NCBI RefSeq assembly: GCF_001422485.1
Contig: NZ_LMNF01000002.1
Span: 817,949 to 881,948, forward strand
DNA length: 64,000 nucleotides
Direction of reading: 5' to 3'
Origin: Agreia sp. Leaf283
Lineage (GTDB): Bacteria > Actinomycetota > Actinomycetes > Actinomycetales > Microbacteriaceae
Numbering within the stretch: position 1 is the first letter of the stretch; every line of letters begins with the position of its first letter. Position numbers and translations under genes: made by a program. This document shows, piece by piece, positions 31,869-59,295 of this stretch. Below the pieces are notes generated by a model. The model had not been told where the DNA came from. It ran no database searches and saw only the letters and a program-made list of their open reading frames with translations.

Positions 31869-32668
31869 CGACCACCGACCCCACATCCACATTCAGTCCG
31901 CAACACCAGGCGCTCGTCGACAGTGTCCTCCTTCGACAGGGGGCCTCGATCCAGTCGGAGCGCATCGCATACGAACACGATGGTTCCTCCCTCGAGGGTT
32001 CTCTCGCCTGGGACTCCTCCGCCACAGGACCGCGGCCCGGAGTGCTCGTCATCCACGACTGGTACGGAGAGGGCGAATACGTGCACGCGCGCGCCGAGAT
32101 GCTGGCACGCCTCGGCTACGTGGCTTTCGCCGCAGACATCTACGGAGCTGGCGTGCGCCCGCAGGGCGACGAAGCGCCCGCCGTGGCCGGCGCGTTCTAC
32201 GCCGACCAGCAGCTTCTTCGCGCCCGCGTCGAAGCCGGCTTCGATCGCCTGCGCTCGGATTCCCGAGTCGACCCCGACCGTATCGCGGTGATCGGCTACT
32301 GCTTCGGCGGCTCGGCCACCCTCGAGTTCGCCCGCACGGGAGCGCCCATCGCTGGCGCAGTCTCCTTCCACGGCGGACTCATCACCCACGAGCCCGCCGA
32401 CGTGGCCGACCTCCGCGCGCCGCTGCTCGTGCTCACCGGCGCCGACGACCCGGTCGTGCCCGACGAGGCCGTCGTCGCATTCGAGAACGAAATGCGCGCC
32501 AGACCGGAACTGGACTGGCAGGTCGTCAGCTACAGCGGAGCGCCGCACGCGTTCACCCAGCCGATGCTCGCGAGCTACCGGCCGAAGGCCGACGCCCGCA
32601 GCTGGGCAGCGATGGAGGCATTCCTCGACGAGGTATTCGCATCAGCCACTGTGGCGCGTGATCATTAA
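31865..32668 (+). CDS. Dienelactone hydrolase family protein
   Basis: 267 residues from a GTG overlapping the TetR stop. Alpha/beta hydrolase fold with the nucleophile Cys in VIGYCFGGSATLEFA near residue 143, the Asp in LVLTGADDPVVPDEAVVAFE near 200 and the His in SYSGAPHAFTQPM near 235. Members hydrolyse dienelactone in aromatic degradation, but many related proteins have other ester substrates. No aromatic-ring pathway genes lie nearby. Its last 4 bases overlap the convergent GH42 stop. Confidence 0.88.
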   Translation: MTTTDPTSTFSPQHQALVDSVLLRQGASIQSERIAYEHDGSSLEGSLAWDSSATGPRPGVLVIHDWYGEGEYVHARAEMLARLGYVAFAADIYGAGVRPQGDEAPAVAGAFYADQQLLRARVEAGFDRLRSDSRVDPDRIAVIGYCFGGSATLEFARTGAPIAGAVSFHGGLITHEPADVADLRAPLLVLTGADDPVVPDEAVVAFENEMRARPELDWQVVSYSGAPHAFTQPMLASYRPKADARSWAAMEAFLDEVFASATVARDH

Positions 32669-34635
32669 GGCCGATGAAGCCAAGTCCATCCCTGGAAGGA
32701 TAGCTCGAGTCGCTCTTCCTTCTTGCCTGCCTCGGATGCGTCAGCTGGGATAATCAGCGACACCGCCTCAGACCCGTGATTGATGAGGAGAAGGTGTTCG
32801 TCGCGCCGACTCACTTCGACGACCTCCGGTAGTCCCGTCAGCTCCGGGCCCACTCCGGCCCGTTCGGCGGCCCAGGCGAGAATCGATGTCATTCCGGCGT
32901 CATCCGGGATCGTTGCGATGTAGTAGCCAACACCAGAACCGAAACCATTTGCCGTCAATGCCGGGGAACCCTTGATCGGGCCGTCTGAGAAAACGGCCAC
33001 GACCTCAGCCGTTTCAGGGTGTAACTCGTCGACCATGTACTCACCGCGGATGGAGGTCCCGTCGACAGTGAAGCTGGCTTCGCGATATCCCGGTCCTCCT
33101 GTTCCCGGGAGGACTAGTGCGTCGTATTCTTCGACCGCAACGCCGAATACGGCTCCAAGCGCCTGGAGGTACCCGCCGGCCCGGAACGTGTTGGTCTCGT
33201 CGACCACGTCGGTGAACGCTGAGACGAGCAGATGTCCGCCGTTCTCGACGTAGTTGGAGAGGTTCGCGGCGCTCTCATCGGTGACGAGGTAGAGCAGGGG
33301 GGCGATAACCAAGGCGTAGCTGCTGAGGTCGGATCGTGCGCTGACGATATCGACGCCGATGTGCTGGCGGTGTAGGGCGGCGTGCCAGCGTTGCACGATG
33401 GCGTGGTAATCCAGCGTCACGGGCATCGCTGGCCCCTCGACTGCCCACAAGCAATCCCAGTCAAACACGATCCCGACGCGCGCTCTCGACCCAGTCCCCA
33501 TCTGAGGAAGAACTTTCAAATCTGCCCCTAATGCGCTGATCTCCCGGAACACTCGAGACTTCTCTCCTGAGTGCGGAAGCATCGCGGAGTGGAACTTCTC
33601 TGCTCCTGCCCGAGACTGGCGCCACTGGAAAAACAGGATGCCGTCGGCGCCTCGGCTCACGGACTGCATAGACCAGGCGGACATCACTCCGGGTTGCTTG
33701 CGCGCGTTCGTCGGCCTCCATTGCACCGCGTTCGTTGCCTGCTCCATGAGCAACCACGGCCGGTCCGGCTTCAGGCCCCGCATGACGTCGCTCGAAAAAG
33801 CCATGGAGCGAAAGGCCTCGGGATCGTTCGGGTCGGGATAGGCGTCATTGCTGACCACGTCCATCTCCTCGGCCCAGCTCCAGTAGTCCGCTCCGGGAAA
33901 TGCCCCCATGAGGTTGGTTGTAATGGGCTGCGTCGCGCCAGAAGCGCGGACGATGTCCCGCTCCATCACGAAAAGGTCAAGGAGGGCGTCGGAGGAAAAT
34001 CGCTTGAAGTCGAGAACCAGGCCGGGATTGGGAAAGGACGGCGTCTTGCGCGGAGGGATGATCTGGGCGAACGATGTGTAGCGCTGCGACCAGAAGGCCG
34101 TGTTCCAGGCTGTGTTCAACGCCTTGATGGTGGTGTACTTCTGCTCGAGCCACTCTGCGAAGGCCGCGCGTGCGTTATCGGAGTAGTCGTAGGCGACATG
34201 GCAGCCGAGTTCATTGTTCACATGCCACATCGATACTGCCGGATGCCGCGCATAGCGTTCCACCAGAGCGCTGACCAGCGTCGCCGCGAGGCGTCGGTAG
34301 TCGGGTGAGGTCGGCGAGTAGTGCTGGCGGCTACCTGGCCAGAGGTTTACCCCGTTCTCATCTTGCGGCAATACTCCGGGGTACTGCTCGGTGAGCCACG
34401 GCGGCGGCGATGCGGTGCCTGTGGCGAGATCCACATCGATACCGTTTGCGTGCATATTCTCGAGCACACGGTCGAGCCATTCCCACTCGAAGACGCCCTC
34501 CGCTGGCTGGATGACTGACCAGGAGAATACGTTGACCGTGACGAGCGTGACCCCGGCCTCGCGCATCAGCCGGGCGTCCTCTACCCAGGTCTCTTCAGAC
34601 CACTGTTCAGGGTTGTAGTCGCCGCCGTACTGCAT
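32665..34635 (-). CDS. GH42 beta-galactosidase
   Basis: 656 residues, without a signal peptide, so intracellular. The GH42 TIM barrel spans about 1-380: MQYGGDYNPEQWSEETWVED, ATGTASPPPWLTEQYPGVLP, the acid/base Glu in MWHVNNELGCHVAYDYSD near 140 and the nucleophile Glu in PWLLMEQATNAVQWRP near 295. The trimerisation domain (about 390-590: VGIVFDWDCLWAVEGPAM) and C-terminal beta-domain follow. It removes terminal beta-galactose, or in some members alpha-L-arabinopyranose. A copy of the locus operator lies 59 bases upstream. It is monocistronic and shares its upstream region with the MFS-GH3 operon. Confidence 0.93.
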   Translation of the reverse strand: MQYGGDYNPEQWSEETWVEDARLMREAGVTLVTVNVFSWSVIQPAEGVFEWEWLDRVLENMHANGIDVDLATGTASPPPWLTEQYPGVLPQDENGVNLWPGSRQHYSPTSPDYRRLAATLVSALVERYARHPAVSMWHVNNELGCHVAYDYSDNARAAFAEWLEQKYTTIKALNTAWNTAFWSQRYTSFAQIIPPRKTPSFPNPGLVLDFKRFSSDALLDLFVMERDIVRASGATQPITTNLMGAFPGADYWSWAEEMDVVSNDAYPDPNDPEAFRSMAFSSDVMRGLKPDRPWLLMEQATNAVQWRPTNARKQPGVMSAWSMQSVSRGADGILFFQWRQSRAGAEKFHSAMLPHSGEKSRVFREISALGADLKVLPQMGTGSRARVGIVFDWDCLWAVEGPAMPVTLDYHAIVQRWHAALHRQHIGVDIVSARSDLSSYALVIAPLLYLVTDESAANLSNYVENGGHLLVSAFTDVVDETNTFRAGGYLQALGAVFGVAVEEYDALVLPGTGGPGYREASFTVDGTSIRGEYMVDELHPETAEVVAVFSDGPIKGSPALTANGFGSGVGYYIATIPDDAGMTSILAWAAERAGVGPELTGLPEVVEVSRRDEHLLLINHGSEAVSLIIPADASEAGKKEERLELSFQGWTWLHRP

Positions 34636-34693
34636 AGGTCTCCCTTGATGTGCCGTCGCGTCAGCCTACGTAGCCGCCTATCTGGTCCACGAC

Positions 34694-34706
34694 CTTTTGC
34701 GCAACA
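34694..34706 (+). promoter_or_regulatory. Glycosidase-locus operator, copy 1 (GH42 side)
   Basis: CTTTTGCGCAACA with the palindromic core TTGCGCAA at 34697-34704. It is 59 bases from the GH42 start. Identical over all 13 bases to the copies at 34751 and 42839. Confidence 0.8.
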
Positions 34707-34750
34707 ACGGGATAAAGACACAGCGCGTGGGTGCAGCAACGCTACAGCGG

Positions 34751-34763
34751 CTTTTGCGCAACA
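34751..34763 (+). promoter_or_regulatory. Glycosidase-locus operator, copy 2 (MFS-GH3 side)
   Basis: CTTTTGCGCAACA, core 34754-34761, 104 bases upstream of the efflux pump GTG. Centre-to-centre distance to copy 1 is 57 bases, close to five and a half helical turns. Together they control the divergent GH42 and MFS-GH3 units; the 231-base gap holds nothing else that I recognise. Confidence 0.8.
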
Positions 34764-34866
34764 ATTCGATATTGCGTCACCTGCATGACAGCATCTCGTC
34801 GGGGACTTATTGCCCCTGCCGGTTCCGCCCCGGAAATGCTCATCACCTTTCTGGAAGGGGCACTCC

Positions 34867-36108
34867 GTGCCGCAGAGAACCACCATCGCAGCGACGGCAC
34901 CTCGCGTGTCGACTCGTCTGATCATCATCCTCGGCTTCCTTGCCGTGCTCGGACCCCTCACGATCGACCTGTACCTGCCGGCCTTCCCGCAGTTGCAGGA
35001 ATCCCTCTCGACCACTCCGGCCCGGGTTCAGCTCACCCTCAGCGCAGCCACCCTCGGCTTCGCTCTCGGACAGCTGGTCGTCGGACCGTGGAGCGACACC
35101 ATCGGTCGTCGTCGTCCACTGCTGATCGCCACTGCTGTGCATATCGTTGCCAGTGTTGCCATCGCCGCAGCTCCGGACATCACCTGGGTCCTGGCGCTCC
35201 GTGTACTGCAAGGCGCCGGCGCCGCGGGAGGCGGCGTCGTCGCCATGGCTATGATGCGCGACGTCGCGGAAGGGCGACACCTCATTCGCGGCCTGGCACG
35301 GGTGGCACTGTTCACCGGTATCGCGCCTGTTATCGCTCCTTTTCTGGGTGCACAACTCATGGTGGCTCTCGACTGGCGCGGGCTCTTCGGCGCGGTGGCG
35401 GTTTACGGCGTCGCCGTGCTTGGGGCGTCGATGTTCCTGATCCCGGAGACGCTCGCACTGGAACGTCGGTTGGACCGTTCGGATCGTCGAGCCGTCTGGC
35501 GTGGCTACCGCACCTTGCTCATGGATCGACGGTTTGTCGGCATCGCACTCATCGGCGGAATGATGGTGTCTTCCGTCTTCGCTTACCTGTCTTCGTCGTC
35601 ATTCCTTCTCCAGCAGCAATACGGCCTGACACCTCAGCTGTATGGCGTCGTATCCGCCGCCAACGCCGTGGCTTTCGTCGTAGGCACTCAAATGTCTGCG
35701 TTCATCGCGCAGCGACGATCTCCCCAACACGTGCTTGTTGTCGTGCTTCCAGCGATGGCCGTCACCGGCTTCTCGCTCGGACTCATCGCTCAAGCCTGGA
35801 GCGGACTTACACCCGTTCTCGGCAGCATGCTGGTGTTTATGGCCCTTGCGGGCGCCTGCGGGCCCTGCCTGGGTGCGCTGGGACTCGCTGACCACGCTAC
35901 GAGAGCAGGCACCGCAGCGGCGCTCTTGGGCGCTGTGAATTTCGGCCTCGCGGGGCTGGCGTCACCCATCGTCGGTGCGATCGGCATCACAACCATGACG
36001 CCATTGGGCGTCGTGATGGGCATAGCTATGACCACGGCGACCGCGGCATTCTGGCTGCTCGTGCGAAACAGACCCCGTGACCGGGTCATCGCTCGGCAGG
36101 TTCATTAG
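34867..36108 (+). CDS. Bcr/CflA-family MFS efflux transporter
   Basis: 413 residues from a GTG with GGAAGGGG 7 bases upstream. Twelve membrane spans; motifs of the drug:proton antiporter group include LAVLGPLTIDLYLPAFPQLQ in the first span, FALGQLVVGPWSDTIGRRRP (motif A) and ALRVLQGAGAAGGGVVAMAM (motif B/C region). Related proteins export bicyclomycin, sulfonamides and other drugs. It is the first gene of an operon with a GH3 glycosidase and is preceded by the glycosidase-locus operator, so its substrate is more likely a product or part of the plant compound being degraded than a medical antibiotic. Confidence 0.9.
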   Translation: MPQRTTIAATAPRVSTRLIIILGFLAVLGPLTIDLYLPAFPQLQESLSTTPARVQLTLSAATLGFALGQLVVGPWSDTIGRRRPLLIATAVHIVASVAIAAAPDITWVLALRVLQGAGAAGGGVVAMAMMRDVAEGRHLIRGLARVALFTGIAPVIAPFLGAQLMVALDWRGLFGAVAVYGVAVLGASMFLIPETLALERRLDRSDRRAVWRGYRTLLMDRRFVGIALIGGMMVSSVFAYLSSSSFLLQQQYGLTPQLYGVVSAANAVAFVVGTQMSAFIAQRRSPQHVLVVVLPAMAVTGFSLGLIAQAWSGLTPVLGSMLVFMALAGACGPCLGALGLADHATRAGTAAALLGAVNFGLAGLASPIVGAIGITTMTPLGVVMGIAMTTATAAFWLLVRNRPRDRVIARQVH

Positions 36109-36158
36109 CACCTGCGGCAGCGCTCTGCGCGACACTTCTCACCTGGAAGAGAGAATCA

Positions 36159-38555
36159 ATGAAGAACTCCACGTACGCCCTGTCCAACGCACCCGAACGC
36201 GCGCACGAGCTCCTCGGGCGGATGACGCTCGGAGAGAAGTGCGCGCAGCTCGCGGGCACTTTCGCCTGGGAGCTGATCAAGCCCGACGGCTCGCCCGCGG
36301 ACACCGCCGAGCAGCTGCTGGCCGCGCCGCCCGGTCATATCTCGCAGCTGATCCTGCACGACGCGCGTCAACTCGCCGACACAGTCGGACTGATGCAGCG
36401 CCGGTTCGTCGAGGACACCCGCCTCGGCATCCCCGCGCTCTTCCATGCCGAGGCCCTAAACGGCGTCCTCGCGGGCGGGCATCCGATCTTCCCTACGGCC
36501 ATCGGACTGGCCGCCGGCTGGAATCCGGCACTCGTTGAGCGGATGGCCGACCTCACGAGACGGGAGATGATCCGTATGGGCCTCCGGCACGCTCTCTCTC
36601 CAGTTATGGATGTCGCCATCGACCCGCGTTGGGGCAGGGTCCACGAGACCTACGGCGAGGACCCCTATCTCGTCGCGGCGCTGTCTGTCGCCTACACTCG
36701 CGGCCTGCAGGGCGAAGAGCTCTCTTCAGGAGTGCTGGCAACCGGCAAGCACTTTCTCGGCTACGCAGCTCCCGAGGCAGGAATGAACTCCTCTGTCGCG
36801 GCGATATCACCCCGACGCATGCGAGACGTGTTCGCGTTTCCGTTCGAAGCCGCCGTTCACCAGGCGGGCCTCGGTTCGATCATGAACACGTACGCCGATA
36901 TCGACGGCATTCCCGTCGCTGCGTCTCGGGAGATCCTCACAGACTTTCTCCGCGGCGAACTGGGCTTCACCGGCTTCGTCTCGGCCGACTACGCCAGCAT
37001 CGAGCATCTCGTCTTCCGTCAGGGCGTCGCCCGCGACATCGCTGAGGCCGCACGGCTCGCTATCAGCGCGGGTCTGGATGTCGAGTTTCCGAAGACCATC
37101 GCTTACGGCCAGGTGCTCGCCGGCGAGGTAGCTGCGGGGCGGCTGGACATGTCTGTCGTCGACGAGTCCGTACTCAGGGTTCTGGAGGCGAAGTTCCGGC
37201 TCGGCCTGTTCGAGCAGCCGTATCCGACCGGAAGCATCGACCTGGACGCTGTGCCGCATGAGGGCGACGGTTTGTCACGCGAACTCGCCCAACGATCTGT
37301 CGTCGTTCTTGAGAATGACGGAATACTCCCCCTCGATCCGACAGGCCGACGCATCGCCGTCGTCGGCCCGCATGCAAATGCTCCGGAGCTCCAATTCGCG
37401 GCCTACAGCTACGTGTCGTGGCGGCAGGCGGTCGAAGCCATTCATCTGGGCGGCGAGATGACGATGGTCGGTGTAGACCACGATGCAGACGCATGGCACC
37501 GGAATCTGGTGCGACCGGGCGAGGCCGCAGCCATGGGTCGTGACCGCTACGACACGAAGTCGCTCGCAGTCGCGCTCGCCGACCGCGGCGCCCAGATAAC
37601 TGTCGAGTCGGGCTCATCGCTGACGAATGATCTCAATCCGTCTGAGCTGGCGAGAGCTGTCACTGCTGCAGCGGACGCGGATCTGACGATCGTTGCTCTG
37701 GGCGGCGCGAGCCTCTGGTTCGCGGGCGAGCGCACCGAGGGCGAGGCCAGCGACACAGCAGACATCTCATTGCCGGCCGCCCAGACCCGCCTGCTCGAAG
37801 CCGTGGCCGCAACGGGCACACCTTTCATCGTCGTACTCGTCCAGGGCCGTGCCTATACATTGCCTGCCGTAGTTGAACAGGCTCGCGCGATCGTCATGTC
37901 CTCGTTCGGCGGACCCTACGGTGCTTCTGCGATCGTCGACGTTCTCATCGGTGACAGCGACCCCGTCGGGCGACTCCCCTACTCGATTCCGAAGCACGTC
38001 GGGCAGGTGCCGATCTATCACCACCGGACGACGGGCAGCGGTGGTCGGTCAGCGTCGTCTGACGCGACGCGCAATGGCTATCTGGATCTGGATGCCGAGC
38101 CTGCGTATCCGTTCGGCTACGGGCTCGCCTTTACAAGTTTCGAGCTCGGTGACCTAAGGGTGCCCGAGATGGTTTCGACGGACGGCGAGTTCACCGTCGA
38201 CGTGCCGATCACGAACACCGGAAGCAGCGCCGGCTCCACAATCGTGCAGCTCTACCTGCGTTCTCGGGTCAGCGGAATCATTCGTCCATTCCAGCAACTC
38301 GCAGGATTCTCAGAGATCCGGTTGGACCCAGGGGCCAGCTCTGTGCTGCGCTTCACCGTGTCCGCCGATCAGCTGGCGGCGTCGGGCATTGACCGCCTGG
38401 TGGCCGTCGAGCCGGGCACCCTCGAGGTCGCCGCAGGTTTCGATTCCGCGACGACCCCGGTGACGGCTCAGCTCCGTGTCGAGGGGCCGCGCCGGGTGGT
38501 GCGTGGCGTTGACCGCAGCTTCTTTTCGCAGGTCGAAATCCTCACGGATTACTGA
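36159..38555 (+). CDS. GH3 beta-glycosidase (beta-glucosidase/beta-xylosidase)
   Basis: 798 residues, without a signal peptide. Catalytic barrel: MTLGEKCAQLAGTFAWELIK, HAEALNGVLAGGHPIFPTAI, the KH motif in GVLATGKHFLGYAAPEAG near 195 and the nucleophile Asp in GFVSADYASIEHLVF near 277. The second alpha/beta domain (about 375-600) and a C-terminal fibronectin III-like domain (about 690-790: DVPITNTGSSAGSTIVQLYL) complete the usual GH3 form. Glucose, xylose and arabinose specificities are all found in this family and cannot be separated here. It is the second gene of the operon begun by the efflux pump. Confidence 0.93.
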   Translation: MKNSTYALSNAPERAHELLGRMTLGEKCAQLAGTFAWELIKPDGSPADTAEQLLAAPPGHISQLILHDARQLADTVGLMQRRFVEDTRLGIPALFHAEALNGVLAGGHPIFPTAIGLAAGWNPALVERMADLTRREMIRMGLRHALSPVMDVAIDPRWGRVHETYGEDPYLVAALSVAYTRGLQGEELSSGVLATGKHFLGYAAPEAGMNSSVAAISPRRMRDVFAFPFEAAVHQAGLGSIMNTYADIDGIPVAASREILTDFLRGELGFTGFVSADYASIEHLVFRQGVARDIAEAARLAISAGLDVEFPKTIAYGQVLAGEVAAGRLDMSVVDESVLRVLEAKFRLGLFEQPYPTGSIDLDAVPHEGDGLSRELAQRSVVVLENDGILPLDPTGRRIAVVGPHANAPELQFAAYSYVSWRQAVEAIHLGGEMTMVGVDHDADAWHRNLVRPGEAAAMGRDRYDTKSLAVALADRGAQITVESGSSLTNDLNPSELARAVTAAADADLTIVALGGASLWFAGERTEGEASDTADISLPAAQTRLLEAVAATGTPFIVVLVQGRAYTLPAVVEQARAIVMSSFGGPYGASAIVDVLIGDSDPVGRLPYSIPKHVGQVPIYHHRTTGSGGRSASSDATRNGYLDLDAEPAYPFGYGLAFTSFELGDLRVPEMVSTDGEFTVDVPITNTGSSAGSTIVQLYLRSRVSGIIRPFQQLAGFSEIRLDPGASSVLRFTVSADQLAASGIDRLVAVEPGTLEVAAGFDSATTPVTAQLRVEGPRRVVRGVDRSFFSQVEILTDY

Positions 38556-38566
38556 ACGGGCCCTGC

Positions 38567-40981
38567 TCAGATCGAGACTCGACCTGAGCTGAGACCCTCT
38601 GCGCGGGCGATGAGTTCACCTGACTCATCGCCCGTTACCCGGAGAACAGCTTGCGCCCGGCCCAGATACGCGTGGCACGAGTTGCCGAGGTAGTCGTCGT
38701 CGGTCGACGGGCGGGCGCTCCCGAACCCCATCAGCTGTGCATCGCCCGTCGTCTCGACCGTGATGATGCGTTCGTCATACGGAACGACGAGGCCAAAATC
38801 GTCGACGAGTTCGACGATGACGTATCGGTGCGCATCCACGGAGGCGGAACTCGCTTGCTCGAGGACCACCCGTATTGCAACTGCTGGCCCGCTCGATCGC
38901 AGGGTTGTCCTCTCCGTCGCCCTTCCATTGCGGTGATTCACCGCGGTCAACTCGCCGGGCTGATAAGGCACGGTGAATGTCGCCAAGTAGTCATGGTCGC
39001 CGCCGGCGGCGTTTCGCGCGATGACAGTGCCATCGAGAAGCAATTCGACCTCGTCGGCATCGCTGTAGACATCGACCGTCATCGGCGTGCCCGCATCGGC
39101 AGTCCACGACCACGAAGAGACGCTGTCTGTCCACGCCCAGCCGAGGCCTGTCGGAACGCGCCCGTCTGTCCGCGGTCGGTGCACTGCTATGTACGGGTCG
39201 GATCGCAAGCCGAACACGATCGCGCGGAAGAACGACGCGGGCCGCCGGAAGCCGGTGATGTCGATGTCTCCGCAGTAGGCGAGCAACGACGGGAATCTAT
39301 CGGCGTCCCAGCCCCCGTCGCTGTCGGGGTAGGTCACGGCACCGAGGCCGGCCTCTCCGAGATAGTCCCAACCTGTCCAGGTGAAGTCGCCGAGCACCCA
39401 AGGCATTGAGGTGACGAGGGTCCAGTTTTCCGCGATATCCTCCGGGTTCGTTTCAGTTCCAACGACGACGCGGTTCGGGTAGAGATCCTTCTCGGCCTGA
39501 TAGCGCCAAGATGCATAGTTATGGCCCGCCACGTCGACGACCGCATGCGACTCGGCAATCGCATTGGTGACAAAATCGGATTTGCTGACCCGATCGAGTA
39601 GGGCTTTTCCCACGCCCTGCGCGTCATTAATGCCGCCCTCCACGCCGACGAGCTCCGCTTTCATCTCCGGCACCGTCTCAGACAGAGTCGCGACAAAACC
39701 GCTGATTCCATTGGTGAGGAACCGGGTTGGATCGAGGGCTCGTACTTCCTCGGCGAGGTCGCGACCAATGGCTGCTCCAAGCGGTTTGCCGGCGTCGAGG
39801 ATCTCGTTGCCGATCGAGTACATGATGACGCTCGGGTGGTTTCGATCCTTGAGGACCATTGCCTCGATGTCGCGCCGCCACCATTCGACGAAGTTGAGCG
39901 AGTAGTCGAATGGCTGCTTTCCTTCGGTCCACATATCGAAGGCCTCATCGATAACCAGCATGCCGAGTCGGTCGCACGCGTCCAAGACACTGGGAGCGAT
40001 CGTGTTGTGCGACGAACGAATCGCATTGAACCCGGCCGATTTGAGAATCCGGATGCGTCGCTCCTCGGCTTCGGGAATCGATACAGCGCCGAGCACACCG
40101 TTGTCGTGATGCACACACGCACCCCGCAGCTTGGTCTCGACACCGTTGATGCGAAGCCCGCGCCGAGGATCGAGTTGCAGGGTCCGGATCCCGAATGTGG
40201 ACGTGCTCTCGTCGTCGATCGCGTCAGCGTTGTGCAGGGTGGCAGCCAGCGTGTAGAGGTTCGGCGCGTCGAGGCTCCATCTCTCGGCATTCTCGACGTA
40301 CATCCGGATACGTGCTGTGGCCGTCTCATTAGCCCGCACTGTGATGACAGTGTCACCGGTCGCCACCTCATTGCCGGCGGGGTCGAGGACGACAGCGTGC
40401 ATCTGACGGATTGACGGCACTCGATCCTGGTTGGCGATTTGCGCGGAGAGCTCGACTACGGCGCGCTCGTCGTCGATGTCGGGTGTGGTGATGGAGACTC
40501 CCCCGGGCACGATGTGCGTCAGCGACAGATCGTGGAGCCACACGCTGCGGTAGATTCCGAGGCCGGAGTACCACCGTGAGTCGCGGTAGGCGCGGGCATC
40601 GACCCGCAGCCGGTTCAGTTGTCCCGGTTTCAGCGCCTGGTCAAGCCGCACGCGGAACGGCGAATAGCCGTTGGGCCTCTGACCGATCAGGACGCCGTTC
40701 AGGTACACCATGGCGTCGCGATACACGCCCTCGAACTCAAGCTCGATCACCCGATCCGCCCAGCTCTCAGGTGCGTCGAATTCCTTGCGGTAGGTCACCG
40801 CGCCGCCTTCGAAGTACCCAGTGGATGAACCGCCCTCGGCGTCGGCTCTCCTGGGAAGTGCCAGCATTGCGTCGTGGGGAAGCGTCACCGCTACCGACGA
40901 AGTCGAGCCCCCCGTGATCTCGGAGAACACACTGACGTTCGGTCCGACGGTCCAGTCGCCGTCGAAGTTGGTGCGTGTCAT
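38567..40981 (-). CDS. GH2 beta-galactosidase-like enzyme
   Basis: 804 residues, intracellular. The order is: sugar-binding domain (about 1-165: TLPHDAMLALPRRADAEGGS, VYLNGVLIGQRPNGYSPF), immunoglobulin-like domain (about 170-275), TIM barrel (LRGACVHHDNGVLGAVSIPE; acid/base Glu in SIGNEILDAG near 392; nucleophile Glu in VVGTETNPED near 508) and two C-terminal beta-sandwich domains ending in an Ig-like module (IRVVLEQASSASVDAHRYVI). The ATG at 40981 overlaps the stop of the DUF5060 gene, so they form one operon. Beta-galactosidase is likeliest; GH2 also contains glucuronidases and mannosidases. Confidence 0.92.
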   Translation of the reverse strand: MTRTNFDGDWTVGPNVSVFSEITGGSTSSVAVTLPHDAMLALPRRADAEGGSSTGYFEGGAVTYRKEFDAPESWADRVIELEFEGVYRDAMVYLNGVLIGQRPNGYSPFRVRLDQALKPGQLNRLRVDARAYRDSRWYSGLGIYRSVWLHDLSLTHIVPGGVSITTPDIDDERAVVELSAQIANQDRVPSIRQMHAVVLDPAGNEVATGDTVITVRANETATARIRMYVENAERWSLDAPNLYTLAATLHNADAIDDESTSTFGIRTLQLDPRRGLRINGVETKLRGACVHHDNGVLGAVSIPEAEERRIRILKSAGFNAIRSSHNTIAPSVLDACDRLGMLVIDEAFDMWTEGKQPFDYSLNFVEWWRRDIEAMVLKDRNHPSVIMYSIGNEILDAGKPLGAAIGRDLAEEVRALDPTRFLTNGISGFVATLSETVPEMKAELVGVEGGINDAQGVGKALLDRVSKSDFVTNAIAESHAVVDVAGHNYASWRYQAEKDLYPNRVVVGTETNPEDIAENWTLVTSMPWVLGDFTWTGWDYLGEAGLGAVTYPDSDGGWDADRFPSLLAYCGDIDITGFRRPASFFRAIVFGLRSDPYIAVHRPRTDGRVPTGLGWAWTDSVSSWSWTADAGTPMTVDVYSDADEVELLLDGTVIARNAAGGDHDYLATFTVPYQPGELTAVNHRNGRATERTTLRSSGPAVAIRVVLEQASSASVDAHRYVIVELVDDFGLVVPYDERIITVETTGDAQLMGFGSARPSTDDDYLGNSCHAYLGRAQAVLRVTGDESGELIARAEGLSSGRVSI
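38605..38633. terminator. Hairpin at the convergent GH3/GH2 ends
   Basis: GGGCGATGAG (38605-38614) and CTCATCGCCC (38624-38633) form a perfect 10-bp stem with a 9-base loop, extended by one CG pair. It lies 50 bases after the GH3 stop and inside the last codons of the GH2 gene. No T-run; a bidirectional barrier between converging transcripts is plausible. Confidence 0.45.
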
Positions 40982-42774: not shown

Positions 42775-42838
42775 CGTCCGGTCGGTCGACGGCGGCGTCT
42801 TCAACGACGATTCCAGACTCGACGCCGTCCTGGCCACC

Positions 42839-42851
42839 TGTTGCGCAAAAG
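42839..42851 (-). promoter_or_regulatory. Glycosidase-locus operator, copy 3 (DUF5060-GH2 operon)
   Basis: CTTTTGCGCAACA on the minus strand, core TTGCGCAA at 42841-42848, 65 bases before the DUF5060 gene start. All 13 bases are the same as copies 1 and 2. Confidence 0.8.
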
Positions 42852-42866
42852 TTCTTTGCAGACGAA

Positions 42867-42901
42867 GACGGCGAGGTTCCTTTCACGGGAACCTCGCCGT
42901 C
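42867..42901 (-). terminator. Strong terminator hairpin after the GH116 gene
   Basis: GACGGCGAGGTTCC (42867-42880) and GGAACCTCGCCGTC (42888-42901) form a perfect 14-bp stem with a 7-base loop, 31 bases beyond the GH116 stop. It separates that gene from the next operator and operon on the same strand. Confidence 0.85.
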
Positions 42902-42932
42902 GTCACTCTCGGCACTACTGGGAAGGCCGAAT

Positions 42933-45812: not shown

Positions 45813-45875
45813 CGGGACTCCTTTGTCGGTTGCAAGGTGCGATGATGCTCGCAGAGACGCTGGCCCGGGCCCATC

Positions 45876-45888
45876 CTTTTGCGCAAAA
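45876..45888 (+). promoter_or_regulatory. Glycosidase-locus operator, copy 4 (GH116)
   Basis: CTTTTGCGCAAAA, core TTGCGCAA at 45879-45886, 64 bases upstream of the GH116 start, in the 111-base gap after the GH43 gene. The last bases differ from the other copies, making it nearly fully palindromic (TTTTGCGCAAAA). Confidence 0.8.
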
Positions 45889-45923
45889 CATCTGCCAAGA
45901 AGGTCGACGCCGACCTCCTGCGT

Positions 45924-47441: not shown

Positions 47442-50277
47442 GAAGTGCTTTCGTGTCAAGAGGGTCAAAGTTGTCTGCCCCGGGTGATGTGAGCGAGCGC
47501 ACGAATGCCGCAAGCTCTTTCTTGGCGGATTCCGAGGGCCACCCCTTTGTCCAAACCCCATCCACCAGACTCGCTACTGGGTGATTGAGGTAGGACGAGA
47601 GCAGCTGCGCAAGTCGCAACTCGTTGGGGGCTAGGTCGGCGCCCAAGGCGAGAGCCGTGAAACGCGCCCAGTGCTGCTCGTCGTCGATGAGGTCGCGAAT
47701 CGTTGAGGTGGCCTGGATTGTGAGCTCAGGGGCCGGTATCTCCCAGCGATGCTGTCCGTGGCTGACGGAGAACTCGCCCGCGTTCCAGGGCAGCTCCACA
47801 TCTGCGGTCGTCCCTACGGGAACTGTCACATCCAAGGTGAGGACGCCGCCCTCCCTTCTCCAGGCAACGCGTGCTTCGCCGTAAGGCGTGATGTGCCGCG
47901 CGGACGCCGAAGTGAGCTGAGCCGGCGGCAGCGGGCGAACGCTGATACCTCGGTATCCCGGAGCACTTGGAGCGAGACCTGCCACGCGCCGGTGAACCCA
48001 GTCGACGACGCTGCCCAACGCGTAGTGGTTGAAGGACGTCATGCCGCTGGGATTGATGGTGCCGTCCGGGAGTAGGGAATCCCACCTCTCCCACACCGTC
48101 GTTGCGTCCATTGTCACGGGATAAAGCCAGGAGGGCGCTGACGTCTGAAAAAGTAGTCTGTGAGCAAGGTCAGCATGGCCGGTGTCTGTCAGCGCGTCAC
48201 AGATGATCGGAGTTCCGACGAATCCGGTTGCGATACGAAACGCGCTCCCCCGAACGAGATCGGCGAGCCGGTTTCCGGCTTCGAGCCGCTGGTCACTGTC
48301 GGTGACCAGATCCCATTGGAGCGCCATGGCATAGGCGGTCTGCGAGTCCGAGAGTACGCGACCGGTTCCCGTAACGAACTCGCGGACGAACGCTTCCCGG
48401 ACTTGTCGGGCGAGAAGTCCGTAGTGCGCTCCTTCGTCTGCACGGCCCAGTTCAAGCGCAGCATCAGCTACGAGTTGCGCAGACTTGGCGAAATGGGCAG
48501 TGGCGACCACGTCTGGATCGGCTTTCGCAGCGGCGGGGTCGTCGAAGGGCGCCGTCGGATCCAGCCAGTCACCGTATTGGAAACCGCCGCGCCAGATGAG
48601 GTCGGGGCCGGCGATCCCGTTGAGGCGGTCGACCCACCCTCGCATGCTGTCGAATTGGCGAGCCAGGACTCCGGTGTCTCCGGTGCGTTGCCAGAGCGTC
48701 CATGGAACGACGGTTGCCGCGTCTCCCCATGCTGCCGCCGGCGCCGATGTCAGTGGCGTTCGCAGGATGTCGGGGATGACGTGCGGTACCGTGCCATCCG
48801 CGCTCTGTTCGGCGGCAAGGTCTTTGAGCCATGAGTCGAGGAACCCGGCGCTGTCAAACAGATAGGTTGCGGTCGGTGTGAATACCTGGATGTCGCCTGT
48901 CCAGCCGAGACGTTCGTCTCGTTGTGGACAGTCGGTCGGCACGCTGAGGAAGTTGCCGCGCATCCCCCAGACGACGTTCTCGTGGAAGCGATTGAGGAGT
49001 TCGTGTGAGGAGTCGAACCATCCGGTTCGCTGCAGATCGCTCGAGATGACGATGGCTTCCAGGTCTCTTGCTTCAATGCCGTCGAGGCCCTCGATTTCGG
49101 CATACCGGAATCCGTGGAACGTCAGCGATGGTTCCAGGATCTCCTCGTCATCACCGCGAATGAAGAATGTGTCCGTGGCTTTCGCACTTCGCAAAGGCTC
49201 GATGCCCAGTTCGCCGTTCTCAAGGACTTCCGCGTGTCGGAGAGTGACCTCGGTTCCTGCCTTTCGCGAATGGACTCGCAGTCGCATCCACCCGACCACG
49301 TTCTGGCCGAAGTCGACGAGCGTCTTGCCGGATGGTGAAGACCAGACACGTCGGGCCTGCAGCGTTTCGACGACGCGCATGGGAGGGCCGTCCTCGCCTG
49401 CAAGCGTGCGAAGATTCCCGGCGACCTCGTCGACTGGCACCGTGAACTCGGTTCTGTCGTCGAACCGGAGATCGGTGATTTGACCGTCGTAGATGTCGTC
49501 GGCAAGTATGCCGGTCGCTCGTGCGCGCCAGGTGCCGTCGGTCGAAAGGGTATGGCGAAGACCGTCGGTTGTCGTCACCTCGAGTTGCGCCAGCAGGGCG
49601 AGGGTGTCGCCGTAGAGGGCGCGTTCGCCGAGAAAGCCGAATCGACCTCGCCACCAGCCGTTGCCCAGCAGTACCGTCACCTGATTGAGCCCGTTTTGGA
49701 CCAGTGCTGTGACGTCGTAGGCCCGGTAGCGGAGGCGATCCTGGTATGCCGTCCACCCCGGCGCCAGGACTGTGTCATCTGCTGGAACTCCATTGATGCG
49801 AGCCGACATGATGCCGTGCGCGGTTGCGAACAACCGCGCGGACGCGATCTCCCCGCTGATCACGATCGAACCCTGGAGTTCGGGCGCCGGCTGGTGGAGA
49901 CCGCCGATACCTCGCGGCGAGATGAATCCCGCACTCCAGTCTTCGACTTCCAGCAACCCGGCCTCGACAACGCGAGCAGGACTCCAGTCGCTTTCATAAC
50001 CAGCCGCCCGAACGCGAACCCGAACCGATGCACGTTCGCGCGAATGAAGGGCATCAGCAGGCCACGGCACGAGAACTTGCTCGGCCGACTCGACCGCGAA
50101 TACTGTCACACCCGCCGGCCGACTGACCTCGACGTCATAGCCGCTCTGTACGTAGTCGTCAGGCGCCGTAGCCACCGTCCACGAGAGTCGAGGCGTGCCG
50201 GTGCCGAGCCCGAGGGTGTCTCCCGGATCCGTTCGATGTTCAAATCTGGGCGCCGTTGGCGGAGTGAGAGAAGCCAT
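47434..50277 (-). CDS. GH78 alpha-L-rhamnosidase
   Basis: 947 residues, no signal peptide. N-terminal beta domains (about 1-110 and 120-350: ARLFATAHGIMSARINGVPA, FGFLGERALYGDTLALLAQL) precede the alpha6/alpha6 barrel with the family signature DCPQRDERLGWTGDIQVFTP near residue 450, including the catalytic Glu of RDERLGW, and AAWGDAATVVPWTLWQRTGD. The C-terminal beta domain ends near 850 and a helical tail of about 90 residues follows (DDEQHWARFTALALGADLAP), more than in many relatives. It releases terminal L-rhamnose from oligosaccharides or plant glycosides. It lies 50 bases after the ABC ATPase gene in the same operon. Confidence 0.93.
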   Translation of the reverse strand: MASLTPPTAPRFEHRTDPGDTLGLGTGTPRLSWTVATAPDDYVQSGYDVEVSRPAGVTVFAVESAEQVLVPWPADALHSRERASVRVRVRAAGYESDWSPARVVEAGLLEVEDWSAGFISPRGIGGLHQPAPELQGSIVISGEIASARLFATAHGIMSARINGVPADDTVLAPGWTAYQDRLRYRAYDVTALVQNGLNQVTVLLGNGWWRGRFGFLGERALYGDTLALLAQLEVTTTDGLRHTLSTDGTWRARATGILADDIYDGQITDLRFDDRTEFTVPVDEVAGNLRTLAGEDGPPMRVVETLQARRVWSSPSGKTLVDFGQNVVGWMRLRVHSRKAGTEVTLRHAEVLENGELGIEPLRSAKATDTFFIRGDDEEILEPSLTFHGFRYAEIEGLDGIEARDLEAIVISSDLQRTGWFDSSHELLNRFHENVVWGMRGNFLSVPTDCPQRDERLGWTGDIQVFTPTATYLFDSAGFLDSWLKDLAAEQSADGTVPHVIPDILRTPLTSAPAAAWGDAATVVPWTLWQRTGDTGVLARQFDSMRGWVDRLNGIAGPDLIWRGGFQYGDWLDPTAPFDDPAAAKADPDVVATAHFAKSAQLVADAALELGRADEGAHYGLLARQVREAFVREFVTGTGRVLSDSQTAYAMALQWDLVTDSDQRLEAGNRLADLVRGSAFRIATGFVGTPIICDALTDTGHADLAHRLLFQTSAPSWLYPVTMDATTVWERWDSLLPDGTINPSGMTSFNHYALGSVVDWVHRRVAGLAPSAPGYRGISVRPLPPAQLTSASARHITPYGEARVAWRREGGVLTLDVTVPVGTTADVELPWNAGEFSVSHGQHRWEIPAPELTIQATSTIRDLIDDEQHWARFTALALGADLAPNELRLAQLLSSYLNHPVASLVDGVWTKGWPSESAKKELAAFVRSLTSPGADNFDPLDTKALHV

Positions 50278-50327
50278 GAGGTCTCCTGTAGCTGAAGGGG
50301 AACTGTGGACGGGACGCGTTCAACGGC

Positions 50328-51167
50328 TCAGGCTGTCTCCGTACCCTCCAGTCGGTCGGCAGCGAGAATTCGTAGTCGCTCCGCGCGACGAGCCCGTTGT
50401 CTTGGTGGGTCCGCGATGGGCGCCGACATCTGGAGCTGGCGCGTATACGGGTGCTGCGGCGCGGTCGCGACCTGATGGGCGTCGCCAATTTCGACGATGC
50501 GCCCTCCTCGTAGAACGGCGATCCGGTCACTGATGGCGTGGACAACACCGAGATCGTGGCTGATGAACAAGTAGGCGACGCCCGTGTCTTTCTGCAGGTC
50601 GCGCAGGAGCGTGAGAACGCGAGCCTGGGTCGTTACGTCGAGAGCACTGGTCGGCTCGTCGCAGACGATGACTGCAGGGTCCATGGCCAGCGCACGGGCT
50701 ATAGCAATGCGCTGCCGTTGCCCGCCGGAGAACTCGCGCGGGTACCGTGATCCCGAGTCGCCCGGCATGCCCACCGCGTCAAGTAGTTCACGAACGCGAG
50801 TCTTGCCCTCGGAGACTCCCGCAGCGCGAAGAGGCTCGACAAGGATACTTTCGATCGTCATGGACGGATTGAGCGATGAATACGGGTCTTGGAAGATGAC
50901 CTGGATGTCTCGGGCGACCTGTCGTCGACGCTGGCGGCTGATGTTGCTGATCTCTTGATCGCGGAATCGGATGGTTCCGCCTGTGACCGGTGCCAGGCCG
51001 AGGATTGCCCGACCAATGGTGGTCTTGCCGGAGCCTGACTCGCCAACCAGACTTACCGTCTCACCGGCCCGCAAGTTGAGCGAGACGTCTTCAATAACGG
51101 TCTTTCCACCCCGGCGGCCGCCGTAACGAACGACCAGATCCTTGATCTCGAGCAGGTTCTCACTCAT
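50328..51167 (-). CDS. Opp/Dpp-type ABC transporter ATP-binding protein (DppF-like)
   Basis: 279 residues. Walker A GESGSGKTT near residue 39, signature SGGQRQRIAIARAL near 145, Walker B VIVCDEPTSALDV near 165, and the oligopeptide-group C-terminal segment HPYTRQLQMSAPIADPP. The ATG overlaps the stop of the permease-ATPase fusion by 8 bases. In this locus the importer most likely takes up oligosaccharides or glycosides rather than peptides. Confidence 0.93.
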   Translation of the reverse strand: MSENLLEIKDLVVRYGGRRGGKTVIEDVSLNLRAGETVSLVGESGSGKTTIGRAILGLAPVTGGTIRFRDQEISNISRQRRRQVARDIQVIFQDPYSSLNPSMTIESILVEPLRAAGVSEGKTRVRELLDAVGMPGDSGSRYPREFSGGQRQRIAIARALAMDPAVIVCDEPTSALDVTTQARVLTLLRDLQKDTGVAYLFISHDLGVVHAISDRIAVLRGGRIVEIGDAHQVATAPQHPYTRQLQMSAPIADPPRQRARRAERLRILAADRLEGTETA

Positions 51168-52953
51168 CGTCAGCCTCTTTCAGTTCGACGGTGCGCGAGG
51201 ACACCAGGAGATCTTTGGTGTACTGATCGTGCGGGGCTGCGAATAGCGAGTCGACGTCATTGCTTTCAATGATTCGACCGTCTTTCATCACACTGACGGT
51301 GTCGCAGATGTCTGCGACAACGCCGAGGTTGTGCGTGACGATAATCATGGCCATCCCCCGTTCCCTGCTGAGTTCTCGAAGGAGTTCTAGAACGTCCGCT
51401 TGCACGGTCACATCCAGAGCAGTTGTCGGCTCGTCGGCGACGATCAGATGAGGTTTAGTCGCCACGGCGCCGCAGATCAGCACGCGTTGTGCCATGCCAC
51501 CGGAGATCTCGTGCGGGTAGAGACTCATGACCCGTTCCGCATCCTGGATACCTACGCGGGTGAGGAGGTCGAGCAGCTCCCGGCGAGCCTGCGCCTTCGA
51601 GACACCAGTCGATGCGCGGAGCCCATAAATGAGCTGGGCGCCGATCGTGAATGACGGATCGAGATTCGACATGGGCTCCTGCGGCACATACGCGATACCA
51701 CGACCGCGGGCCCGGCGCATGCGCATCTTGTCCGCAAGAAGGTCGCGGCCCTCGAAGAAGACACTGCCGCCTAGAACTACCGCTTCGCGCGGCAGAATGC
51801 CGAGCGTCGAGAATGCGAGCTGCGACTTTCCTGACCCGGATTCGCCCACGAGGCCGTGGATTTCGCCTTTTCGAACATCGAGGTCTACGCCGTGAACCAC
51901 GGGGCGTACGTCATCGGCAGATGTCGGGTAGCCGATCCGCAGATTGCGGATTGAGAGAATGACGTCCTGCGCCGGAGTTAGGTCATTTACGCCAGCAACT
52001 CGCTCGTCCTGTGCCGACATCATCAAAGAACGTCGTCTGGCGCCTTTGAGCACCGCACTGCGGTTCGAGGCCTGGAGCGTGTCGCGCAGAGCATTACCCA
52101 GCAGCACGAATGACAGGATCGTCAGGCTGATAAGAATCGAAGGCCAGATGACGTTGGCTGGGTTTGTGTACAGGTTGTTGAACGCTTCCTGGAGCACTCG
52201 ACCCCAGGATGGTGCCGAGGGGTCACCGAGTCCGAGGAAGTCGACTCCGGCGAGAATTGCGACGGCTGTAGCGAGCACGAACGAGCTCTGGACAATGACT
52301 GGCGCCCGCACAGCCGACAGCACATGCCGACCGATGATTCGCGCATCAGAAAGTCCGACGACCTTGGCGGCATCGATGTAGAGCTCGGACCGAACCGAGA
52401 TGACAACGGAGCGGACCAGTCGGTAGAACGACGGGGCGACGATGACGCCGAATACAGCCATGGCGACGGGGATGTTCGGGCCAGTCAGCGCATACAGCGC
52501 GATCAGCAAGACGATTCCCGGGAGCGACATGATCACGTCTGAGACGAAGTTCACGACGGTCTCGAACTTGCCGCGATAGAAACCGGCGAGTAGTCCGAAT
52601 GTGAGCCCCAAGACCAGGGAGACCCCCAAGACGAGCAGGCAGGCGATGATGGTCTGCTGCGTTCCCCACATGAGGCGCGAGAGGATATCGCGACCTGAGG
52701 CGTCGGCGCCGAAGAAGTGACCGTCGGTGAAAGGTGCCGCGTTGGTAGCCGCAAGGTCTGTCGCGTTCGGCGAGAATGGCGCAAGCCACGGCGTGGTGAT
52801 CGCGATGAAGACAATAAGAAACAGGAAGGCAATGCTGACGGACGCGAAAGGATTCGCGAGCAATGATCGCAGCGGTGAGCGGCGGACACGTTCGCCGGTG
52901 ATTGCTGCGGTGCCGTCTGCAGCAGGGTCGAGTTCGTGCTGATCGATGGTCAT
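51160..52953 (-). CDS. Fused ABC permease (DppC) and ATPase (DppD)
   Basis: 597 residues joining two proteins that are usually separate. Residues 1-290 are the DppC-type permease: FADASGRDILSRLMWGTQQT-like region (GADASGRDILSRLMWGT near 82), AAKVVGLSDARIIGRHVLSA as the EAA loop, and six membrane spans. After a linker (about 300-330) comes the ATPase: Walker A GESGSGKSQ near 366, signature SGGMAQRVLICGAV near 475 and Walker B LIVADEPTTALDVT near 497. The frame is open through the joint with no sign of a frameshift. Such fusions are known in some actinobacterial Opp systems. It overlaps its neighbours on both sides by 4-8 bases. Confidence 0.92.
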   Translation of the reverse strand: MTIDQHELDPAADGTAAITGERVRRSPLRSLLANPFASVSIAFLFLIVFIAITTPWLAPFSPNATDLAATNAAPFTDGHFFGADASGRDILSRLMWGTQQTIIACLLVLGVSLVLGLTFGLLAGFYRGKFETVVNFVSDVIMSLPGIVLLIALYALTGPNIPVAMAVFGVIVAPSFYRLVRSVVISVRSELYIDAAKVVGLSDARIIGRHVLSAVRAPVIVQSSFVLATAVAILAGVDFLGLGDPSAPSWGRVLQEAFNNLYTNPANVIWPSILISLTILSFVLLGNALRDTLQASNRSAVLKGARRRSLMMSAQDERVAGVNDLTPAQDVILSIRNLRIGYPTSADDVRPVVHGVDLDVRKGEIHGLVGESGSGKSQLAFSTLGILPREAVVLGGSVFFEGRDLLADKMRMRRARGRGIAYVPQEPMSNLDPSFTIGAQLIYGLRASTGVSKAQARRELLDLLTRVGIQDAERVMSLYPHEISGGMAQRVLICGAVATKPHLIVADEPTTALDVTVQADVLELLRELSRERGMAMIIVTHNLGVVADICDTVSVMKDGRIIESNDVDSLFAAPHDQYTKDLLVSSRTVELKEADDE

Positions 52954-53891: not shown

Positions 53892-53910
53892 AGTTGGGGC
53901 CTACCGCCGG

Positions 53911-55434: not shown

Positions 55435-55746
55435 AACAACTCCTTTGTTGGTTTGGGTGTCACTGAGCTGTGAACCCGGGAGGAGAGCCAATCGTGATTG
55501 CAGGGGCTTCGATCTCCGAAGCTGACGCTACGCATAGCAATCTGCCGCGGCAAGAAAACCAGAGACTTTTGCGCAACTCGTCGGGTGTTGCCAAATCGTT
55601 GCAGACGAGCCCGCGCATCAACGCAGTCAGGTCAGCGTCATTCTTTGCTGTCCTCATCGCTTGGTGTGATCAGCCTCGGGTCCGAGCCGGTCTTCGTTCC
55701 TGTAGTAACGTGCCGGAAACAGCCGCCGCACGATCAAAGGAGATAC
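55435..55746. promoter_or_regulatory. Divergent regulatory region between the ABC-GH78-GH43 operon and its LacI gene
   Basis: 312 bases without a gene. It holds the operator copy at 55566-55578, ribosome sites at both ends, and presumably two promoters, of which none stands out. A TGTAGTAACGT stretch near 55702-55712 could be part of the LacI gene promoter. Confidence 0.55.
55566..55578 (+). promoter_or_regulatory. Glycosidase-locus operator, copy 5 (ABC operon and lacI)
   Basis: CTTTTGCGCAACT, core TTGCGCAA at 55569-55576, 12 of 13 bases as in copies 1-3. It lies between the binding-protein gene and the LacI gene and could repress both. Confidence 0.8.
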
Positions 55747-56763
55747 ATGACGGAGCATGGCCCTGACTCTGTCACTTTCGCGATGATCGCGGAAGCCGCA
55801 GGGGTGTCTGTGTCATCCGTGTCGCGGGTGCTTGCCGGTCGCGGTGATCTGAAGCGGCAGACGCGCGAGAAGGTTCTCGAGGCGGCCCGGGCACTGGGAT
55901 ACAACCGCAGTTCGGCCCTCCGGGGCAGACCGGCGACATTGGACCAGCGGCTCATCGAATTGGTGTTGGGCAGCTTCGACGACGCATGGACGAGCGCAGT
56001 GGTTGCCGGTACCAGGCAGGCAGCCTTTCGACTTGGATTCGATCTCGTGCTGACGCTGGAGCGCGACGATCCGTCCGACGATTGGCCGGCTCGCGTCGCA
56101 ATGCGCAAACCCTCCGGAGTGATACTCGGAATCATCCGCCCGACACATAGTCAACTCGACGAACTACGAGGCCTTCGCATCCCCATAGTCCTGCTCGATC
56201 CACGCTCCGACCCCGAGGGCGAACTCGCCAGCGTCGGCACAACCGATTGGCAAGGCGGTTACGACGCCGGGGAACACCTTGCTCAATCTGGAGCCTTGAG
56301 CTTTATCGTCGTGACCGGAGTCCCCGCGTATCGATTCGGCCGCGCACGGGAAGAAGGTTTCCGGGCAGCACTAGCTGAACTGGCTCCGGAGGCCAGCATT
56401 CGGCGCGTCGAAAGTCAGTGGACCAACGCCGCTCCCACGACCGCATTGGTGCGTGCCCTGAAAGAGTCGGCATTACCCGTCGGGGTCTTCGCAGGCAACG
56501 ACGAAATGGCTCTTTCCGTCTATGCCGCGGTCCAGCGATTGGACCTCGCCATTCCCGCAGACGTCCGCATCGTGGGGTTCAATGATGAACCTAGGGCTGT
56601 CGCTGCTACACCGCCGCTGACATCCGTTCGCCAACCGCTCCGAGAGATGGCAGGTCGTGCGGTGGAATTAGTGCGGGAACTCCGAGAACATCAAGACGAC
56701 CAATTCGAGCGAGTGGAGATCCCCTCCCGTCTCATCATCCGCCGGTCCTCGAACCGAGACTGA
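55747..56763 (+). CDS. LacI-family regulator of the glycosidase locus
   Basis: 338 residues with AAAGGAG 6 bases before the ATG. The helix-turn-helix is at residues 10-32 (FAMIAEAAGVSVSSVSRVLA), with the hinge following (EAARALGYNRSSALRGRPAT) and a binding-protein-like sensor domain (IELVLGSFDDAWTSAVVAG; VVTGVPAYRFGRAREEGFRA; PVGVFAGNDEMALSVYAAVQ; RIVGFNDEP). It is the only regulator within the 24-kb locus and adjoins one of five identical operators, so it is the obvious reader of that site. Effector unknown; likely a mono- or disaccharide released by the hydrolases. Confidence 0.92.
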   Translation: MTEHGPDSVTFAMIAEAAGVSVSSVSRVLAGRGDLKRQTREKVLEAARALGYNRSSALRGRPATLDQRLIELVLGSFDDAWTSAVVAGTRQAAFRLGFDLVLTLERDDPSDDWPARVAMRKPSGVILGIIRPTHSQLDELRGLRIPIVLLDPRSDPEGELASVGTTDWQGGYDAGEHLAQSGALSFIVVTGVPAYRFGRAREEGFRAALAELAPEASIRRVESQWTNAAPTTALVRALKESALPVGVFAGNDEMALSVYAAVQRLDLAIPADVRIVGFNDEPRAVAATPPLTSVRQPLREMAGRAVELVRELREHQDDQFERVEIPSRLIIRRSSNRD

Positions 56764-59283: not shown

Positions 59284-59295
59284 GGGGAGACGACC

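Follow-up and report, generated by a model that had tools for sequence, protein, structure and literature searches.

A short shared operator and its likely LacI-type regulator in a putative plant-glycoside regulon of Agreia sp. Leaf283

Seven glycosidase genes, an Opp-type ABC transporter, a major facilitator superfamily (MFS) transporter and a LacI-family repressor lie together at 32665-56763 of a 64,000-nucleotide stretch of Agreia sp. Leaf283 DNA (contig NZ_LMNF01000002.1, positions 817,949 to 881,948; hereafter the window). Are these genes controlled together, by which regulator, and to what end? A single palindromic word, TTGCGCAA, clusters in the locus, stands in promoter position before its transcription units, and recurs jointly with the regulator and its targets in related genomes. 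We consider it probable that the locus is an accessory regulon, under one LacI repressor, for the catabolism of small plant-type glycosides.

TTGCGCAA is the part identical in all five copies of the site, at 34697, 34754, 42841, 45879 and 55569, and every copy extends to TTTTGCGCAA on one or other strand. An earlier note on this DNA, made from the letters alone, had described a single 13-base site. All five copies exist, but CTTTTGCGCAACA is exact at only three of them, the other two each carrying one mismatch in the last two bases, and the exact 13-mer was therefore rejected as the site. The copies are as follows.

34694-34706, plus strand: operator copy 1, CTTTTGCGCAACA; 8-mer 62 bp from the GH42 start and 163 bp from the MFS start
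34751-34763, plus strand: operator copy 2, CTTTTGCGCAACA; 8-mer 106 bp from the MFS start and 119 bp from the GH42 start
42839-42851, minus strand: operator copy 3, CTTTTGCGCAACA; 8-mer 136 bp from the DUF5060 start
45876-45888, plus strand: operator copy 4, CTTTTGCGCAAAA, between the GH43 stop and the GH116 start; 8-mer 85 bp from the GH116 start
55566-55578, plus strand: operator copy 5, CTTTTGCGCAACT; 8-mer 135 bp from the OppA start (ATG 55434) and 171 bp from the lacI start

The five TTGCGCAA copies in the window compare with 0.45 expected, and a count of at least five was reached in 0 of 100 shuffles; with one mismatch allowed in the 8-mer the window shows no excess (15 seen, 17.65 expected). 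Across the 3,978,453 bases of the genome the word occurs at 23 places, against 62 for its reversed control. With the genome outside the locus as background rate, the Poisson probability of at least five copies in 24.1 kb is 1.2e-7. The longer form TTTTGCGCAA has only six genomic places, five of them in the locus. A frequent scatter of the site through the genome, which the earlier note had named as counting against its proposal, is thus not seen. The sixth TTTTGCGCAA (C2:554931) lies 24 bp beyond the end of a 401-aa open reading frame (ORF) and was taken as a chance occurrence rather than a regulon member, its neighbours having been listed, not searched.

All five window sites are intergenic and one precedes each proposed unit, as had been claimed. 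The arrangement is less tidy than one copy per unit: the divergently oriented GH42 and MFS genes have two copies in their common gap (34697 and 34754), and OppA and lacI share the one at 55569. Counted from the 8-mer to the chosen start codon, the distance for lacI (171 bp) lies outside the range of about 60-135 bases originally given. LacI/GalR operators are described, in the accessible part of PMC4052901, as palindromic, with a central CG and mostly 140-30 bp before the start codon; with its own central CG and nearest-gene distances of 62, 85, 106, 135 and 136 bp, TTGCGCAA conforms to that description. No useful result came from scanning 32600-52500 for the sigma-70 consensus.

Which protein reads the word? 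The product of 55747-56763 belongs to the LacI/GalR family by both of its domains (PF00356, 42.9 bits against a cut-off of 27; PF13377, 106 bits against 26.5). The genome, however, contains 38 LacI-type helix-turn-helix (HTH) matches, and TTGCGCAA lies immediately upstream of two LacI genes besides this one: C1:1140867, the closest paralogue in the genome (158 bits), with two copies, and C1:1064707 with one. The window alone therefore does not name the regulator, and the earlier statement that it is defined from sequence alone was too strong; what singles out this LacI is the evidence of orthologous loci and of flanking bases.

A protein search returned 48 loci. Eight of these carry 63-75% relatives of the repressor (in Leifsonia, Herbiconiux, Microbacterium and one Microbacteriaceae record) and together contain 26 copies of TTGCGCAA and no control words in 168 kb. 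For the other 40 loci, which are more distant, the counts are 18 and 7, respectively, in 682 kb, with no TTGCGCAA at locus positions 9000-10100, where most matches begin (matches lying elsewhere were not positioned). Nine loci with 59-75% relatives were compared over about 295 kb, with 40-51 kb read for five of them and 21 kb for the other four. They hold 41 copies of TTGCGCAA against 1.84 expected under a second-order model, placing it first among the 256 palindromic 8-mers, and when all 8-mers were counted in 11 lacI upstream regions, TTGCGCAA and TGCGCAAA came first, in nine of the 11. Together with the window these loci give 46 sites. A called start follows within 400 bp for 41 of them, and five fall inside called ORFs, two of the latter probably through a start called too early. 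Given a coding fraction of 0.896 for that DNA (simple gene caller), the binomial probability of such promoter positioning is 5e-35.

The targets recur as well, in counts that include the four loci read over only 21 kb: GH43 in eight of the nine (at least 57% identity), the Opp set and GH78 in six each (GH78 at least 45%), DUF5060 and GH2 in five, MFS in four, GH3 (at least 55%) and GH42 in two and GH116 in one. The genes behind the sites are OppA, GH43, GH78, GH2, GH42, MFS, DUF5060 and lacI; single relatives add an alpha/beta hydrolase, a further apiosidase-like protein, a GFO/IDH/MocA oxidoreductase, other MFS proteins, and products without a Pfam match (ten unlabelled ORFs behind sites were scanned). 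LacI 55747-56763 is the likely regulator of the locus, since its orthologues are accompanied by the same word in front of homologous genes, and the proposal of five transcription units under one operator word is borne out. The regulon is real and was correctly spotted; its exact site was overstated.

Gene families were assigned by Pfam profile matches, with bits given where reported:

32665-34635, minus strand: GH42 glycosidase (beta-galactosidase type), no obvious signal peptide; PF02449 497 bits, PF08532 159 bits
34867-36108, plus strand: MFS protein of Bcr/CflA type, more likely an exporter; GTG start preceded by GGAAGGGG; TIGR00710
36159-38555, plus strand: GH3 glycosidase; PF00933, PF01915, PF14310; nearest solved relative the beta-xylosidase 7zb3
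38567-40981, minus strand: GH2 glycosidase (beta-galactosidase type); PF02836 and others; ATG overlapping the DUF5060 gene stop
40978-42705, minus strand: putative DUF5060/apiosidase-like/DUF5605 glycosidase; PF16586, PF13204, PF18310; start ATG 42705
42933-45794, minus strand: GH116 glycosidase, probably secreted, by its signal-like N-terminal segment; PF12215, PF04685
45924-47441, minus strand: GH43 glycosidase (beta-xylosidase/alpha-L-arabinofuranosidase type); PF04616 268 bits; start overlapping the GH78 stop
47434-50277, minus strand: GH78 alpha-L-rhamnosidase; PF17389 398 bits; 692 bits to 6gsz (alpha-L-rhamnosidase)
50328-51167, minus strand: Opp/Dpp-type ABC ATPase; PF00005, PF08352
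51160-52953, minus strand: fused permease-ATPase (OppC-OppD); PF00528, PF12911, PF00005
52950-53891, minus strand: permease (OppB); PF00528, PF19300
53911-55434, minus strand: substrate-binding protein, SBP family 5 (OppA); PF00496 210 bits; ATG 55434 with AAAGGAG; signal-like N-terminus
55747-56763, plus strand: LacI-family repressor with an RGRP linker (residues 59-62) in place of the hinge-helix motif; PF00356, PF13377

The start of GH43 inside the end of GH78, and of GH2 inside the end of the DUF5060 gene, fits operons. The nearest solved structure to the DUF5060 protein is 4n0r, a putative glycoside hydrolase (346 bits), and those to GH43 are 5z5d and 5jow (a beta-xylosidase and arabinofuranosidases). 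Matches of the GH2 protein to NF041462 and NF041463 fall below their cut-offs, and in the GH3 protein no S-D-W/Y/F motif was found and its catalytic aspartate was not located. The MFS protein scores 260.9 bits with TIGR00710 (Bcr/CflA efflux) against a curated cut-off of 200.9, on the longer ORF 34810-36108; since it passes that cut-off it is more likely an exporter, and a role as sugar importer was rejected. By N-termini read by eye together with a hydropathy value, six of the seven hydrolases lack an obvious signal peptide, and only GH116 has a signal-like one.

In the scheme we infer from these genes, the LacI protein would bind TTTTGCGCAA-type sites before GH42, MFS-GH3, DUF5060-GH2, GH116, Opp-GH78-GH43 and its own gene, and a sugar or glycoside would release it. 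The Opp-type transporter may import rhamnose-bearing glycosides, from which the intracellular GH78, GH43, GH3, GH2, GH42 and DUF5060 proteins would strip sugars, and the Bcr/CflA-type exporter would then remove the aglycone; secreted GH116 may trim outside the cell. Import of small glycosides, their deglycosylation within the cell and export of the aglycone are proposed because the MFS protein is of Bcr/CflA type and six of the seven hydrolases lack an obvious signal peptide. The hydrolase families present are mostly exo-acting. Such families, in cytoplasm-like form and under one operator with an Opp importer and an efflux MFS, suggest glycoside deglycosylation with aglycone export.

Several observations weigh against this scheme. 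A Bcr/CflA-like gene is present in only four of the nine relative loci and other MFS proteins stand behind the site in some relatives, which weakens the export step in particular, and no gene examined names the aglycone. On the side of the regulator, two of the 11 closest LacI genes (our own included), both from Leifsonia sp. Leaf336, have no TTGCGCAA within 300 bp upstream. Since the word also lies just upstream of other LacI genes, cross-regulation by the products of C1:1140867 or C1:1064707 is possible.

The strongest competing account keeps the regulon and changes its substrate: the genes would serve pectin side chains (rhamnogalacturonan, apiose-containing and arabinogalactan oligosaccharides), and the exporter would be incidental. 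We regard this as a tentative possibility. The locus has a DUF5060/apiosidase-like protein, GH78, GH43, GH42 and GH2, families that fit pectic side chains, and SBP family 5 transporters can carry oligosaccharides. Set against this are the efflux-type MFS behind the same operator, the mostly exo-acting character of the families, and the absence of any polysaccharide lyase among the locus genes scanned. The pectin account also has a precedent in the RhaR regulon of Actinomycetales for rhamnose and rhamno-oligosaccharides, where, in the available text of PMC3870299, a LacI-type regulator controls rhamnosidases together with ABC uptake, as here. That text gives 20-bp palindromic motifs for its LacI regulons, whereas here there is a strong fixed 8-bp core with weak A/T to +/-7; furthermore, no rhamnose catabolic gene was seen among the locus genes scanned.

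What kind of repressor is this? Aligned with CcpA, the hinge stretch NAVARGL-AS falls opposite SSALRGRPAT, and by sequence the canonical hinge-helix motif (A-x-x-L type) is absent. Across 17 aligned LacI proteins the linker is variable except for RGRP: 13 have it unchanged, 15 have xGRP, and all 17 have the second arginine. By eye, all 38 distant relatives shown retain the hinge motif (F replacing L in one), as do 20 of the 22 own-genome proteins shown, these 22 being the ones that matched the script pattern. The genome's set of 42 LacI-like ORFs, which includes four duplicates, has [RK]GRP in this position in the present protein alone; one further ORF carries these letters close to its start. 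RGRP in a flexible segment is the core of AT-hooks, which bind A/T-rich DNA in its minor groove. No AT-hook family was listed by Pfam for four RGRP proteins at E-values up to 10, a weak negative given a very short model and HMMER filters that drop weak hits, and we found no open-access literature joining LacI with AT-hook and hinge helix, or the LacI family with AT-hook and operator. The clade thus seems to be without the usual hinge-helix motif and to have an AT-hook-like RGRP in its place.

The word is shared beyond this clade. It stands before all six further xGRP-type LacI genes of the family (L145-L150, L145 being the same gene as L127) and before all six LacI genes of a clade from another family within the order that lacks RGRP (L151-L156), and before none of 17 other LacI genes (L157-L173), among which, hinge-less as they are, a shared CGAANNTTCG-like site gave no consistent match. 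Fourteen LacI genes, all xGRP, have 46-52% identity; TTGCGCAA lies within 300 bp upstream of three and is missing there from the other 11, seven of which come from one genus, and no other shared word was established for these 11. Exclusive use of TTGCGCAA by this LacI was accordingly rejected, since genes from other LacI clades are preceded by it too, and a tie between RGRP and TTGCGCAA is upheld in neither direction, L151-L156 having the site without RGRP and the 11 xGRP genes lacking the site. The letters of TTGCGCAA also occur, in the part of the IolQ paper available (PMC5504672), inside a footprint whose stated consensus is AGAAAGCGCTTTCT. Upstream of the paralogue at C1:1140701-1141934 (L057:9702-10935) two A(G/C)TTGCGCAA sites, at C1:1140701 and C1:1140806, are shared with a divergent gene. 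That gene, beside C1:1140867, is presumably ThuA-like, judging by its N-terminus.

This sharing bears on a second alternative, that another LacI-family protein, such as the C1:1140867 paralogue, reads all or some of the sites, in a shared regulon. The paralogue's two upstream copies and its closeness, as well as the L151-L156 clade with its core before genes without RGRP, speak for it. The flanking bases and the co-occurrence of site and orthologue among loci speak against it, and we judge it improbable. A TT at -6,-5 in at least one half is found in 27 of the 46 regulon sites, all five in the window included, and in 8 of 8 sites of other xGRP LacI loci, but in none of the 14 from loci without RGRP (the paralogue's own two among them) and in 1 of 15 other genomic copies. 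An A/T at -5 is found in 58 of 92 regulon half-sites against 9 of 30 at the other own-genome TTGCGCAA. The Fisher value for A/T at -5 between regulon and non-RGRP sites, 7e-6, overstates independence, since sites of one group are related to each other and were gathered from entire fetched loci.

Finally, chance or local composition as the source of the clustering is practically negligible and was rejected: although the lower G+C of the locus (0.622, the remainder of the window having 0.673) slightly raises the odds of A/T-flanked words, the shuffles, the genome-wide and cross-genome enrichment, the promoter positions and the recurrence in nine relative loci all contradict it.

How might a LacI protein without the hinge-helix motif find its operators? 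In the LacI family the hinge helix enters the minor groove at the operator centre. One conceivable answer is that the clade gave up this helix and that the AT-hook-like RGRP arm holds the T-tracts flanking the short TTGCGCAA core, acting as the specificity element. TTTTGCGCAA is the form at the operators of the regulon and A(G/C)TTGCGCAA that of hinge-less relatives lacking RGRP, and the arm's role in specificity would rest on this difference. The core without RGRP in L151-L156 and the 11 of 14 site-less xGRP genes count on the other side, and a recount of those genes led us to lower this idea from a tentative possibility to a doubtful one.

In its general build the regulon is ordinary in kind; it is the repressor that is unusual. 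Like canonical LacI, PurR, CcpA and RbsR, the protein joins an N-terminal HTH to a periplasmic-binding-like effector domain, whereas its hinge-helix motif is absent, RGRP standing there instead, and its operator conservation is concentrated in the centre. Described LacI-family motifs are mostly even palindromes of 16-22 nt (PMC4052901, as far as its text is available). The 46 regulon sites show a weak A/T preference at +/-5 to 7 and none clear beyond, the core at +/-1 to 4 being fixed by the search. BxlR of Streptomyces, a LacI-family regulator for xylo-oligosaccharides, is reported in PMC12772271 to act through CGAANxTTCG, a short palindrome located upstream of ABC and xylosidase genes; that operator differs from TTGCGCAA.

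For the function of the locus the nearest model may be the GH2-GH3-GH78 clusters of Arthrobacter sp. S41 and Glutamicibacter halophytocola S2, which, according to the accessible parts of PMC9597252 and PMC10653915, deglycosylate potato glycoalkaloids. There, as here, GH2, GH3 and GH78 share one actinobacterial locus; compared by description, the present locus adds a shared LacI operator, an importer of Opp type and an exporter of Bcr/CflA type, as well as GH42, GH43, GH116 and DUF5060. In the main text of PMC9597252 the words LacI, transporter and operon do not appear. The earlier view that no locus with this set had been described holds for the full set in the literature searched, but its GH2, GH3 and GH78 part has these precedents.

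Across 32001-56000 the G+C is 0.60-0.64, against 0.65-0.69 in most of the window. At the thresholds used, relatives were found in one of eight same-genus genomes (our own) and in 19 of 398 family genomes (our own included). Lower G+C together with this patchy distribution fits horizontal acquisition of the locus. Directly downstream, 56954-60216 holds a second LacI gene, whose hinge motif is normal, and then an SBP family 1 ABC operon; as no TTGCGCAA precedes this LacI gene, the segment is probably a separate sugar system. On the other side, 20531-29366 holds genes for a GH32 protein, a third LacI (23799-24845), a sugar-binding protein, a BPD_transp_2 permease and a PfkB kinase, likely a fructan or sucrose locus adjoining the regulon.

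Taken together, the locus provides a testable set of regulator, operator and targets for the apparent breakdown of plant glycosides in Microbacteriaceae, and the nine related loci offer more places to search for the substrate. If the RGRP arm does act as proposed, it would keep paralogous regulons apart. There also seems to be a subgroup of LacI proteins that holds DNA without the hinge helix deemed necessary in textbook models.

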